From: Pseudomonadota bacterium
GTDB lineage: Bacteria > Pseudomonadota > Alphaproteobacteria > Acetobacterales > Acetobacteraceae
NCBI GenBank assembly: GCA_021781835.1
Contig: JAJXWD010000030.1
Span: forward strand, 1 to 35,253
DNA length: 35,253 bases
Direction of reading: 5' to 3'
The number at the start of each line of letters is the position of its first letter. Position 1 is the first letter of the stretch. The notes under the pieces were generated by a model, which was given only the letters and a program-made list of their open reading frames with translations, was not told the DNA's origin and did no database searches. A program made the position numbers and the translations under genes. Positions 28,411-32,282 of this stretch are shown piece after piece.

Positions 28411-28968
28411 TTCGGCGCGCAAGGCCGGCAGGGTGATCTCGGTGAACCAGGGGTTCTGGCGCTCCCACAACCCGGTGCGCCAGCTGGGGTGGGGCAGCGG
28501 CCAGACCTTGCCCACCCGCCCAGCCTGAACGCCAGCCCGGACATGGGCGGTCATCAGCCCTGGGCCAAGATAATGTTTGATGGCGTATGAGCCGACCAGC
28601 AGCACCAGCTCGATTTGCGGCAGCAGCGCCAGGAAGCGCCGATGCCAGAGCGGCGCGCAGACCGGGCGGGGCGGGCAATCTCCGCCTTTGGGCAGGCGGC
28701 CCGGATAGCACAGCCCCATGGGCAGGATGCAGAGCTTGGCGGGGTCGTAGAAAATCTCAGGGGTGATGGCGAGCCAGGCGCGCAGGCGATCGCCCGAGGC
28801 ATCGGTGAAGGGGCGGCCGGAAATATGCGCCTTGGTGCCCGGCGCCTGGCCGATGAGCAGCACCCGCGCCGTGCCCGAAACCTGGAAAACCGGCCCGGGG
28901 CCAAGCGGCAGATCCGGGCAGACGGTGCAGGCACGGGCCTCGCGGGCCAGCTCGTCGAGCGCGTTCAG
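28390..28968 (-). CDS. Uracil-DNA glycosylase family protein, probable CTG start
   Basis: The protein (192 residues from the proposed start) has the uracil-DNA glycosylase superfamily motifs: GQAPGTKAHISGRPF with the active-site loop (G40-Q-A-P-G44), MGLCYPGR, and the second loop LPHPS-W-R near the end. Cys14 and Cys17 (ACTVCPDLPLGP), with further Cys in GGDCPPRPVCAP, suggest a [4Fe-4S]-type (family 4/5) enzyme. The first in-frame ATG/GTG/TTG is GTG at 28863, which would remove both N-terminal Cys and start inside the first beta strand. In the open frame the only good start is CTG at 28968, overlapping the petC TGA as CTGA, like ten similar junctions here. I therefore propose CTG initiation. 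It is the last gene of the petABC transcript. Confidence 0.8.
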   Translation of the reverse strand: MNALDELAREARACTVCPDLPLGPGPVFQVSGTARVLLIGQAPGTKAHISGRPFTDASGDRLRAWLAITPEIFYDPAKLCILPMGLCYPGRLPKGGDCPPRPVCAPLWHRRFLALLPQIELVLLVGSYAIKHYLGPGLMTAHVRAGVQAGRVGKVWPLPHPSWRTGLWERQNPWFTEITLPALRAELRRLTA

Positions 28969-29666
28969 CTCTGGGCGCTCCAGGCCCGGCGCTTCACGGC
29001 CAGGGCCACCAGGAACAGGAAGCCGAAGAAGATGAGCGCCCGCAGGCCGATTTCATGGCGGATGGTGAGGGTGGGGTCGGCCGCCCAGGTGAGAAACTCG
29101 GCGACATCGGCGGCTTCCTGGGCGGTGGTGGGGGAGGTGCCGTCGGCGTAGGTCACGGCGCCGTCATGCAAGGGGGGCGGCATGGCGATCTGCCCGCCCG
29201 GATAGGCGCTGTTGTAATAATGGCCGGGCATGATGGCCAGGCCGGCCGGGGCCGGGGTGTAGCCGGTGAGCACGGCATAAATATAGGCCGCGCCACCCGG
29301 GCGCTGGGCGGCGATGCTGGAAAGATCGGGGGGGAGGGCGCCGCCAAAGGCGCTGGCGGGCACGGCGGCGGGTTTGAAGGGGCTGTCGGGCGTGGCAAGG
29401 CTGCCGTCGGCCAGCTTGATGCCCGACGCGATGCCCGCGACCTGCGCGGAGGTCAGCCCCAGCCCCTCGAGGTCGCGGTAATGCAGGGCGCCCAGCGAAT
29501 GGCAGGCGGAGCAGGCGCTTTCATAGACCGCGAAGCCGCGCTGGGCGGCGGCATCGTCGATATGGCCGAAGGGGCCGCTGGAGGGAAAGGACGGCGCGCT
29601 TTGCGCCATCGCCGGGGCGGCGCCCGCGAGCAGGGCCAGCAGGGACAGAGTGAACGGGCGCATCAT
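28965..29666 (-). CDS. petC: Cytochrome c1 (PetC), intact heme motif
   Basis: Cytochrome c1 passes electrons from the Rieske protein to cytochrome c in bc1 complexes. The 233-residue protein has a cleavable signal (ends APAMA-Q), the heme-attachment motif C52-S-A-C55-H56, PPDLSSI, the axial Met162 in AMPPPL, WAADP near the C-terminus and a final membrane helix (about 207-225) anchoring the soluble domain to the periplasmic side. It is somewhat shorter than typical c1, lacking a loop before GGALPPDLS. The ATG at 29666 overlaps petB by ATGA. Unlike petA and petB, none of its key residues is changed. Confidence 0.93.
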   Translation of the reverse strand: MMRPFTLSLLALLAGAAPAMAQSAPSFPSSGPFGHIDDAAAQRGFAVYESACSACHSLGALHYRDLEGLGLTSAQVAGIASGIKLADGSLATPDSPFKPAAVPASAFGGALPPDLSSIAAQRPGGAAYIYAVLTGYTPAPAGLAIMPGHYYNSAYPGGQIAMPPPLHDGAVTYADGTSPTTAQEAADVAEFLTWAADPTLTIRHEIGLRALIFFGFLFLVALAVKRRAWSAQS

Positions 29667-30757
29667 TTGGCCTTCCCCCAGGTGACGAGCGGCAACAGCA
29701 CCAGGAAATGCAGAAATATGTAGAGGGTGAGCAGCGAATCGAGCATGGGGGCCACCGGGCAGCCGGGCAAGGCGCCATCGAGGCCCAACGCCACCACCAC
29801 CACGCCAAGCAGCCAGGTGAGCGCCTGATGCAGCCGGCTGGGCGGCGCCCCGGGCGGTGCCAAGTCCAGCCAGGGGGTGGCGTAGAGCGTGGCCACCAGG
29901 GCAATGACCACGCCAATGCCGCCCCAGCTGCCATGAAAACCGCCCGCCGCCGCGCCGATGGGGGCGAGATACCAGGGCAGGCCCGGATTGGCGGCGAAGC
30001 TGAGCCCGCCGCCCGGCACCGCGGCGAGCGCGGGCATGCCCAGATGCGGGAAAAACCCGATGAGCAGCGCGCCCACAAACCCCAGCGCGCACAGCGCCAC
30101 CATGTATTGCGTGGCGTAATAGGGGCAAAACCGCACGCCCTCGCCCGCCGCCGGCACAGGCCGGACCTTGGCGCGCGCGGCCAGCCACACCCACAGCGCC
30201 AGCCCGAGCGACAGGGCCAGCAGCATATGCAGCACCAGCAGCTTGGGCAGGCCGCCGCTCAAGCCCCACAAGGCCAGCGCGCGCGCCGCGCCGTGGAGTT
30301 GCAGGGCCGCCATCATGGCGCGCTGATAGGACCAGTAACCCCCTGCCCCGCCGGCCAGCACATAGCCGAACCACGAGGCGGCCAGCAGCACGGCCAGCAG
30401 CTTGACACCCACCACCCAGGCATATTCGCCGGGCGCGCGGTAGGCGCGGGTGAGCAGGCCGTGAAACAGCCAAAGATAGACCAGCCCCGCCAGCAGCGTG
30501 GTGCCGCTGGCATGATAGGCGCGCACCAGCCAGCCCTGGGGCACGTTGTGGCTGAGGAATTGCAGGCTGGCGATGGGGGCGCGGGCATCATAGGCCGCCA
30601 GCAGCACAAGCCCCGAGGCCAGCACCAGCAGGGTGGTGACGGCGATGAGGAACGGCACGGCGCCGAAATATGCCCCGCCCTTGGCGCGGGGGGGGCAGGC
30701 GCAGCCCAGGCCCGGGATGCGGCTTTGCGCCCAGGATGAGGCGGGATGATCGGTCAT
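29663..30757 (-). CDS. petB: Divergent cytochrome b (PetB) lacking predicted heme bH ligands
   Basis: This 364-residue, multi-helix membrane protein is recognisable as cytochrome b of the bc1 complex: helix A (TTLLVLASGLVLLAAY), the region after it ending QGWLVRAYHASG, YRAPGEYAWVVG, GYVL, and PWLDLAP. Key residues differ. Helix B keeps H82 but has W96 fourteen residues later, where YLH is expected (YLWLFH). Helix D keeps H177 but has W191 at the expected second His. H82/H177 correspond to the heme bL pair, while both predicted bH ligands are Trp. PEWY reads L260-P-W-Y, so the Glu is gone, and GYVLPWGQMSFW is GYVLAGGAGGYW. The gene is otherwise clean. ATG at 30757 follows petA by 10 bp. I infer a complex unable to run a Q cycle. 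Confidence 0.9.
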   Translation of the reverse strand: MTDHPASSWAQSRIPGLGCACPPRAKGGAYFGAVPFLIAVTTLLVLASGLVLLAAYDARAPIASLQFLSHNVPQGWLVRAYHASGTTLLAGLVYLWLFHGLLTRAYRAPGEYAWVVGVKLLAVLLAASWFGYVLAGGAGGYWSYQRAMMAALQLHGAARALALWGLSGGLPKLLVLHMLLALSLGLALWVWLAARAKVRPVPAAGEGVRFCPYYATQYMVALCALGFVGALLIGFFPHLGMPALAAVPGGGLSFAANPGLPWYLAPIGAAAGGFHGSWGGIGVVIALVATLYATPWLDLAPPGAPPSRLHQALTWLLGVVVVALGLDGALPGCPVAPMLDSLLTLYIFLHFLVLLPLVTWGKAK

Positions 30758-30767
30758 GGGGCCTCCG

Positions 30768-31316
30768 TCAGCCAAGCTGGATCTGGTCGGCGTTGAGGAA
30801 TTTATACGGCGGAATGGCGAGGTTGGCGCGCGCCGGCCCCGCGCGCAGACGGCCCAGCGGGTCGTAGGCGGAGCCGTCGCACGGGCTGAGCCAGCCATCG
30901 AAGGGGCCGCGCGGGTCGGTGGGGGCGTTGCCCTCGAGTTCGCAGGGCACGCCGGTATTGAGCCCGACCACCACCACCACCCCCTCGTGGCCCGGTTGCA
31001 CGCGGGCGGCGTAGCTGGCGGGATCAGGCAGGGTCGAGGGCACGATCTCCTGGTTGTCGCTCATCTGCTGGGCGGTGAGCTTGCGGATATAGACGGGCAG
31101 CCCCGCCCACTGCACGGCGATGGCGCTGTTCTCGGCGATGCCCGAGACGGTGACGACCAAACGCTCGCCGGCGCTGGCGTCGCCATCGGGGGTGAGCGCG
31201 TCGATGAGCGGCCAGGCGATGGCGGCGGACGCCACCAGCCCGCCGGCGGTGGCCAGAATGGTCAAGAAATCGCGCCGATCAACGGCGCCCTCTGCGGTGG
31301 TCGCTGTTTCAGCCAT
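30768..31316 (-). CDS. petA: Rieske-like protein (PetA) missing all [2Fe-2S] ligands
   Basis: The 182-residue protein matches the ubiquinol-cytochrome c reductase Rieske subunit along its length: a Tat-like N-terminus R14-R-D-F-L, the membrane segment AGGLVASAAIAWPLIDAL, the head domain, and the tail GPARANLAIPPYKFLNADQIQLG. The cluster-binding boxes are altered. Box I, normally C-T-H-L-G-C, is N120-T-G122-V-P-C125. Box II, normally C-P-C-H-G-S, is S144-P-C146-D147-G-S. Thus both ligand Cys and both ligand His are gone, while the two cysteines that form the structural disulfide (C125, C146) remain. ATG at 31316 has GGGGGAAA upstream. It starts the petABC unit, divergent from hemF. Confidence 0.92.
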   Translation of the reverse strand: MAETATTAEGAVDRRDFLTILATAGGLVASAAIAWPLIDALTPDGDASAGERLVVTVSGIAENSAIAVQWAGLPVYIRKLTAQQMSDNQEIVPSTLPDPASYAARVQPGHEGVVVVVGLNTGVPCELEGNAPTDPRGPFDGWLSPCDGSAYDPLGRLRAGPARANLAIPPYKFLNADQIQLG

Positions 31317-31409: not shown

Positions 31410-32282
31410 ATGGCGCTCATGACCGATCATACCCACCCCCCCCTGACCCACGAGACCCTGAAACCAGAAGCCGCCGCCTGGTTCGCCAGCTTGCGCGACC
31501 GCATTTGCGCCGAATTCGAGGCGGTGGAGCGCGAGGCGGGCGGAGATGCGGTTTTTACCCGCACCGGCTGGGAGCGGCCGGGCGGCGGGGGCGGCGTGAT
31601 GAGCGTGCTGCGCGGCGCCGTGTTTGAGAAGGCCGGGGTGAATATTTCGGTGGTCGAGGGCAGTTTCTCGGCCGAATTCGCGGCCAAGATTCCAGGCGCG
31701 GACGAGGATCCGCGCTTCTGGGCGGCGGGCATTTCGCTGGTGGCGCATCCGCGCTCGCCCAAGCTGCCGGCCGTTCATATGAATACCCGCCTGATCGTGA
31801 CGCAAAAAGGCTGGTTCGGCGGCGGTGGCGACCTGACCCCCCTGCAACCCGGCACCGAGGAGGCCAGGGAAGACAGCGCGACCTTTCATGCCGCCTACCG
31901 CGCCGCCTGCGACAAGCACGACCCCGGCTATTATCCGCGCTTCAAGGCCTGGTGCGACGAATATTTCTTTCTGCCCCACCGTAACGAGCCACGTGGCGCG
32001 GGGGGGATTTTTTACGACTATCTCGATTCGGGCGATGTGGCGGCGGATTTCGCCTTTACCCGCGATGTCGGCGAGGCGTTTCTGGCCGGCTATTTCCCCA
32101 TTGCCCGGCGGCGCTGGGCCGAAGCCTATACGCCAGAAGAGCGCGAGGCCCAGCTCATCCGCCGCGGGCGCTATGTGGAGTTTAATCTGCTCTATGACCG
32201 GGGCACGATGTTTGGGCTGAAAACCGGCGGCAATACCGAGGCGATTTTGATGTCCATGCCGCCCGAGGTGAAATGGCCCTGA
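31410..32282 (+). CDS. hemF: Oxygen-dependent coproporphyrinogen III oxidase
   Basis: HemF converts coproporphyrinogen III to protoporphyrinogen IX with O2 in heme synthesis. The 290-residue protein has the family's conserved blocks: [77 protein letters not shown], and ending [41 protein letters not shown] at 31410 is the first codon; ATG at 31419 is possible, and no clear ribosome site separates them. It is divergent from petABC, whose products need heme. The presence of HemF indicates growth with oxygen. Confidence 0.97.

Follow-up and report, generated by a model that had tools for sequence, protein, structure and literature searches.

A deranged cytochrome bc1 complex of Acidocella, without conventional Rieske or heme bH ligands, may persist as a scaffold for cytochrome c1

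Why would a bacterium keep a cytochrome bc1 operon whose products lack the conventional ligands for the Rieske cluster and for heme bH? The question is raised by the 35,253-nucleotide stretch of DNA analyzed here (the window), which is the whole of one contig (G000:C20) of a 2.9-Mb genome (G000; completeness, 99.3%) placed in the genus Acidocella. The argument turns on the following features.

30771..31316, minus strand: petA, Rieske-type subunit; cluster ligands replaced (N120, G122, S144, and D147), TAT signal and disulfide cysteines C125/C146 present
29666..30757 (open frame 29663-30757), minus strand: petB, cytochrome b; bL pair H82/H177, bH positions W96/W191, LPWY in place of PEWY
30470..30472, minus strand: codon of W96, the former bH ligand in helix B (cca on the plus strand; placed by alignment and position arithmetic)
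30185..30187, minus strand: codon of W191, the former bH ligand in helix D (cca on the plus strand; placed by alignment and position arithmetic)
28965..29666, minus strand: petC, cytochrome c1; CSACH and axial Met162 (PF02167, 3.1e-60), the heme site appearing intact
31410..32282, plus strand: hemF, a neighbor divergent from petABC and one of three dN/dS controls

The petB frame encodes a 364-amino-acid cytochrome b that matches the cytochrome b families of Pfam weakly (PF00033, 1.4e-13; PF13631, 3.6e-09). As the original prediction had described, H82 and H177 are each followed 14 residues later by a tryptophan (W96 and W191), and this register was upheld by aligning a profile of 18 Acidocella PetB proteins with solved cytochromes b (best E value, 2.7e-57; helices B and D free of gaps). 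In that alignment, position 82 is the bL histidine of HANGA and position 96 the histidine of YLH. His occupies all four heme columns in the 35 Acetobacteraceae rows outside the two deranged genera considered here, so a shifted register is unnecessary. A bH register using H99, or a helix D histidine one residue further on, was examined and rejected: position 99 is the Arg of FRG in relatives, His99 and His192 each occur in 4 of 34 Acidocella proteins, and the window's protein has H177 as its sole helix D histidine. By alignment, H82/H177 is the bL pair, and the bis-His ligation of bH is lost.

The survey of Acidocella covered 38 genomes, 36 of them with a PetB match; PetA and PetB were aligned in 34, leaving out G031 and G033 (no petB match) and G007 and G034 (no petB locus retrieved). 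The bL histidines, residues from which heme binding is predicted, are present in 34/34 (H82) and 33/34 (H177) of the aligned proteins. The bH columns are highly variable, with 12 different residues at position 96 (besides His, Trp, and Gly: L, Y, A, V, T, S, K, F, and Q) and 10 at position 191 (besides His and Trp: A, L, Y, I, S, Q, R, and G). His96 occurs in 9 of the 34 and His191 in another 9, never together, and 16 have neither. Relatives thus do carry His at these codons singly, but in no case as a pair.

This variability bears on the two tryptophans, which had been taken for matched His-to-Trp changes filling a vacant bH pocket. Both positions are Trp in the window, and W191 is common to the nearest relative, G020, whose PetB is 86% identical. 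However, the Trp96/Trp191 pair is found in 1 of the 34 aligned genomes, the window's own; G020 has Gly at position 96, and Ala, Gly, or Ser is found at both positions in other Acidocella species, so that bulky filling is not required. The genus survey therefore largely contradicts an adaptive matched substitution, which we consider very improbable. Judging from the alignment, both tryptophans look like chance occupants of a disused heme site in one lineage, the spread of residues reflecting relaxed constraint at a vacated position.

Read from the translation, the cd loop of the window's PetB is AGGAGGYW and the PEWY motif is LPWY, both as first reported; xPWY, with Glu replaced by Pro, occurs in 34/34 Acidocella. 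The PetB of another member of the Acetobacteraceae, G090, has PPWY alongside intact bL, bH, and Rieske ligands, and loss of the PEWY Glu alone is therefore no marker of a dead complex. An AlphaFold2 model of PetB, built on an alignment of 18 sequences (mean pLDDT, 61; pTM, 0.50; Foldseek TM, ~0.5), was of too low a quality for heme pockets. As a separate observation, G027 (genome 77% complete) has the sole aligned Acidocella PetB that also lacks a bL ligand (H177 replaced by L) and hence has neither b heme pair.

In the window's PetA, the motif CTHLGC...CPCHGS has become NTGVPC...SPCDGS, which replaces 4/4 Rieske cluster ligands and leaves both disulfide cysteines. N120, T121, C125, C146, and D147 are invariant in 34/34 Acidocella PetA proteins; position 122 is G in 28 and A in 6, with C (22) or S (12) at position 144, and at most one of the four ligands of CxH...CxxH is present in any of them (C144, in those 22). 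Loss of the PetA ligands (N, G/A, C/S, and D) thus runs through the whole genus, whereas the W96/W191 pair, whose co-occurrence with it had been proposed for a survey, is confined to a single genome. A complex that lacks conventional ligands for both the cluster and bH can have no Q cycle, as was originally concluded on chemical grounds from its cytochrome b together with the cluster-free PetA.

Despite these replacements, PetA is recognizable as a Rieske relative by profile and fold. In Pfam, the window's protein matches just the TAT-signal family of the Rieske subunit, and PF00355 (Rieske) gave no match in the three Acidocella PetA proteins scanned. A profile of PetA relatives finds the solved Rieske subunits of the PDB (E value, 1.6e-41), and in the predicted model the Rieske fold of the head domain is preserved (131 columns superposed on 1RIE at 1.7 Å; TM, 0.91 on the target). 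Moreover, the protein scores 114.6 bits against TIGR01416 of NCBIfam (ubiquinol-cytochrome c reductase iron-sulfur subunit; cut-off, 97.4) without any cluster ligand. Automatic annotation will therefore mislabel such proteins as iron-sulfur subunits, a warning that comes out of this survey. In PetC, CxxCH is found in 33/33 Acidocella and the axial Met in 29/33, the remaining four sequences ending at the locus end. We also observed that the second Rieske His (position 147) is Asp in 34/34 Acidocella and Asp or Asn in four genomes of a sister genus, g120, while Cys144 varies; from this pattern, the Asp/Asn replacement may be selected in its own right.

The petA, petB, and petC frames are present in 34/34 Acidocella loci, and no stops within petB or petA were seen among the matches listed. 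Two PetA peptide patterns, scanned over 84,980 species genomes, returned 34 loci, of which 16 are labeled Acidocella, 17 bear broader names, and 1 is Rhodovastum (L067). A second bc1 complex in the window's genome was considered and rejected, since the genome gives a single cytochrome b match and a single PetA match. No new conserved operon partner was seen: beyond petA, petB, petC, and merged reverse-strand frames (including hemF), no frame family exceeded 22 of the 34 loci, some of which end at contig ends.

Is the operon being maintained? Values of dN/dS (Nei-Gojobori) for petA, petB, and petC lay between 0.02 and 0.40 in 39/39 gene-by-pair comparisons from 13 species pairs, among which some genomes recur. 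The G000/G020 values were 0.36 (petA), 0.28 (petB), and 0.21 (petC), against 0.09 each for hemF, pdhA, and hldE. Going by these substitution rates, petABC is under purifying selection, relaxed yet not dead. The subunits also differ in their conservation: in a comparison of one genus as the test set with 16 different genera that we picked as controls, petB came last in conservation among the three subunits in 362 of 378 pairs from 28 Acidocella but in 0 of 120 pairs from the intact-ligand genera, where it came first in 96. Mean identities for petA, petB, and petC were 65.1, 53.5, and 66.6% in the 28 Acidocella and 73.1, 78.8, and 63.5% in the 16 genera, petC being alike in both sets. The Acidocella set leaves out five genomes with PetC cut at the locus end and one without PetC; the controls are 16 of 24 intact-ligand rows, after setting aside six distant rows with a long ISP and two that are fragmentary or doubtful. 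Within Acidocella, PetA is nearly as conserved as PetC, and selection may thus act on PetA itself. On the PetB tree, which leaves out two outgroup second copies (G111b and G228b), the stem to G000 and G020 exceeds all others within Acidocella, at 0.86 changes per column, an unusually fast change for cytochrome b in this lineage. The PetA tree leaves out five rows (fragments or spurious), and the PetC tree leaves out eleven (fragments, spurious, or second copy).

A crippled bc1 complex in Acidocella is already known and thus not new in kind. The deranged bc1 of this genus was published in 2023 by Degli Esposti et al. (PMC10715153), and its authors propose that the complex acts structurally toward Complex I, with iron oxidation providing a bypass. 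The complex described there and that of the window share genus and operon, an ISP without three or four ligands and with its disulfide cysteines, loss of the bH ligands, and an intact c1; the loss of 4/4 ISP ligands and Trp at both bH positions set the window apart, going by the paper's text description. The Acidiphilium complex of the same paper, described there as having no ISP gene and no bH His, shares the loss of bH ligands, whereas Acidocella keeps a full-length petA beside petB. With canonical alphaproteobacterial bc1 (PDB IDs 2YIU and 1ZRT), the window has in common the sequence-profile kinship of the three subunits, the bL ligands, and the c1 heme site, but it lacks the Rieske ligands, the bH ligands, and the PEWY Glu. 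Engineered Rhodobacter bH knockouts (H212N; PMC4330944) likewise have a cytochrome b with bL and without bH. Unlike in those knockouts, the loss in the window is natural and includes the cluster ligands. The Rhodobacter mutants reportedly have the Rieske cluster. Our survey adds the retention of the bL histidines, the selection data, the inverted rate of petB, the ligand pattern of g120 and its member G254, and the counts of changes on the PetB tree. Among the papers retrieved by searches naming Acidocella, no title concerned the biochemistry of the complex.

A natural bc1 without cluster ligands, bH site, or Qo Glu, yet under selection, suggests a function independent of the Q cycle. We propose, with about even confidence for and against, that petABC is a deranged bc1 typical of Acidocella in which a bL-held cytochrome b and PetA scaffold cytochrome c1, c1 being kept for the cytochrome c/aa3 branch and Trp96/Trp191 being neutral. 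Heme bL would be retained as the cofactor that keeps the cytochrome b helices bundled. During assembly in yeast, the bL site is the first to receive its heme (PMC9502982), and bL reduction is still seen in a Rhodobacter knockout that lacks both bH hemes (PMC4330944); in the latter study, however, fused dimers with both bH sites removed failed to assemble, which means that a cytochrome b with bL alone can be unstable. PetB and the cluster-free PetA would act as anchor and scaffold for cytochrome c1. Cytochrome c1 would be the selected part; in the cytochrome c/aa3 oxidase branch, it would be either a membrane-bound cytochrome c or a docking site and could be fed by non-quinol donors, e.g., the iron pathways proposed in PMC10715153. 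Trp96 and Trp191 would then be a neutral filling of the vacant heme site.

The oxidase side of this proposal can be followed across genomes. G000 encodes an aa3 oxidase, with CtaD and CoxB models above curated cut-offs and a CuA-type motif in subunit II (read by eye). Of 31 tested genomes whose cytochrome b is deranged, 29 have CtaD above its cut-off (19/20 Acidocella, from the 38 in the genus, and 10/11 g120), against 6 of the 19 that lack a cytochrome b match, a contrast between two related genera and a mixed set in which the counts ignore kinship. Two genomes that lack cytochrome b, G267 (99% complete) and G160 (one contig), also have aa3, which hence can exist without the petABC complex. 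We treat the association as a lead, not proof. G254, which has intact Rieske ligands, has no CtaD above the cut-off and a partial match only.

An inactive bc1 might instead be kept as a supercomplex partner that stabilizes Complex I, the role offered in PMC10715153. NuoD is present at an E value of 1e-40 or better in 34/38 Acidocella and in 3/3 g120 genomes tested, as this published proposal would have it. Other members of the family argue against it: 25 of 200 genomes have no PetA match, and of the 17 without a cytochrome b match among the 20 of these that were listed, some of them fragmentary, 13 have NuoD at E < 1e-100. G160, on one contig and 99% complete, has NuoD and NuoH without cytochrome b, and G107, G186, and G208, likewise with no cytochrome b match, are also single contigs. 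Conversely, G015 (96% complete) has petABC without a strong NuoD or NuoH, which one missing contig could explain. Complex I thus fails to separate keepers (37/41, a set including two Acidocella in which no petB was found) from losers (13/17 among those listed). Its occurrence in these relatives, which gave no cytochrome b match, shows that Complex I does not need bc1 in this family, and the published role fits poorly; we hold it to be unlikely in general, and a role restricted to Acidocella is possible.

The operon could also be on its way out and have no role at all. The free drift at the bH positions, the standing of petB as the least conserved subunit, and the G000/G020 dN/dS values, two to four times those of the three neighbors, are what plain decay would produce, and g120 includes both several petB loci without recognizable PetA and 2 genomes out of 13 without cytochrome b. 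Nevertheless, the selection test speaks against decay, as do the three frames kept in every Acidocella locus, the lack of stops among the listed petB and petA matches, the five invariant PetA residues, and the retained c1 heme site, and we regard decay as improbable. A further candidate is a one-way quinol:cytochrome c1 reductase working through heme bL alone, in favor of which stand the retained bL histidines and the heme site of c1; linear transfer with bH absent is discussed in PMC10715153. Against such an enzyme, there is no known carrier from Qo to c1 without a Rieske cluster, and Pro stands in place of the PEWY Glu throughout Acidocella. The distance from bL to c1 is, in addition, too long for tunneling. 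We find this activity scarcely credible in Acidocella; on the basis of its ligands, G254 might act in this way, and Acidocella should not.

The sister genus bears on how the complex was dismantled. On the PetB tree, g120 is sister to Acidocella, with the bH ligands in 0/11 and the bL ligands in 11/11. The 24 rows outside the two deranged genera that were read for both proteins all have intact Rieske ligands in addition to the four His. Within g120, G254 (L167:783-2613) has a PetA with the full set of four Rieske ligands (CPHRGC...CPCHGA; Pfam Rieske, 1.6e-08), encoded in the same operon as a PetB with E96/G191/PPWY; this PetA clusters with its kin (support, 85; long branch). This genome might therefore encode a natural linear quinol:cytochrome c reductase, a candidate put forward from its motifs. 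Four other g120 PetA proteins have lost the ligands otherwise (over six columns, DACDCN in three and AQCDCD in one) and retain the disulfide cysteines; in the remaining g120 genomes, no PetA was recognized beside petB. Members of g120 without PetA and bH ligands fit the account of Acidiphilium in PMC10715153. The claim made there that loss of bH ligands in acidophilic taxa always comes with ISP changes is contradicted by G254, if ligand changes are meant, and the intermediate Acidisoma taxon of that paper may be the same as, or similar to, the organism of G254.

Within Acidocella, the PetB tree, a quick tree with long-branch warnings on which regains of His are possible, requires at least 5 changes for His96 and at least 3 for His191 by a fewest-changes count in which gain and loss are indistinguishable. 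Since different lineages keep different single histidines, the Acidocella ancestor probably had both, which makes separate losses of bH in the two genera probable. A wider scenario would have the bc1 complex dismantled separately and in opposite order in these acidophile sister genera, the Rieske cluster going first in Acidocella (where all 34 PetA proteins share the N and D replacements and the bH sites would have decayed afterwards along different lineages) and bH first in g120 (where the order rests on one genome, G254). The bL pair and heme c1 would survive in both, leaving a novel c1 module that serves the cytochrome c/aa3 branch without a Q cycle; we offer this tentatively, as a doubtful extension. 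Because named Acidocella strains carry the deranged bc1, a structural role of complex III is testable by gene removal.

Finally, 37 of the 38 Acidocella genomes have a second, distant NuoD homolog in an open frame mostly of ~500 amino acids (e.g., G000:C8:4169-8332). A distant NuoH homolog is found near it in G000 and in some of the others, possibly as part of a group 4 hydrogenase-like complex.
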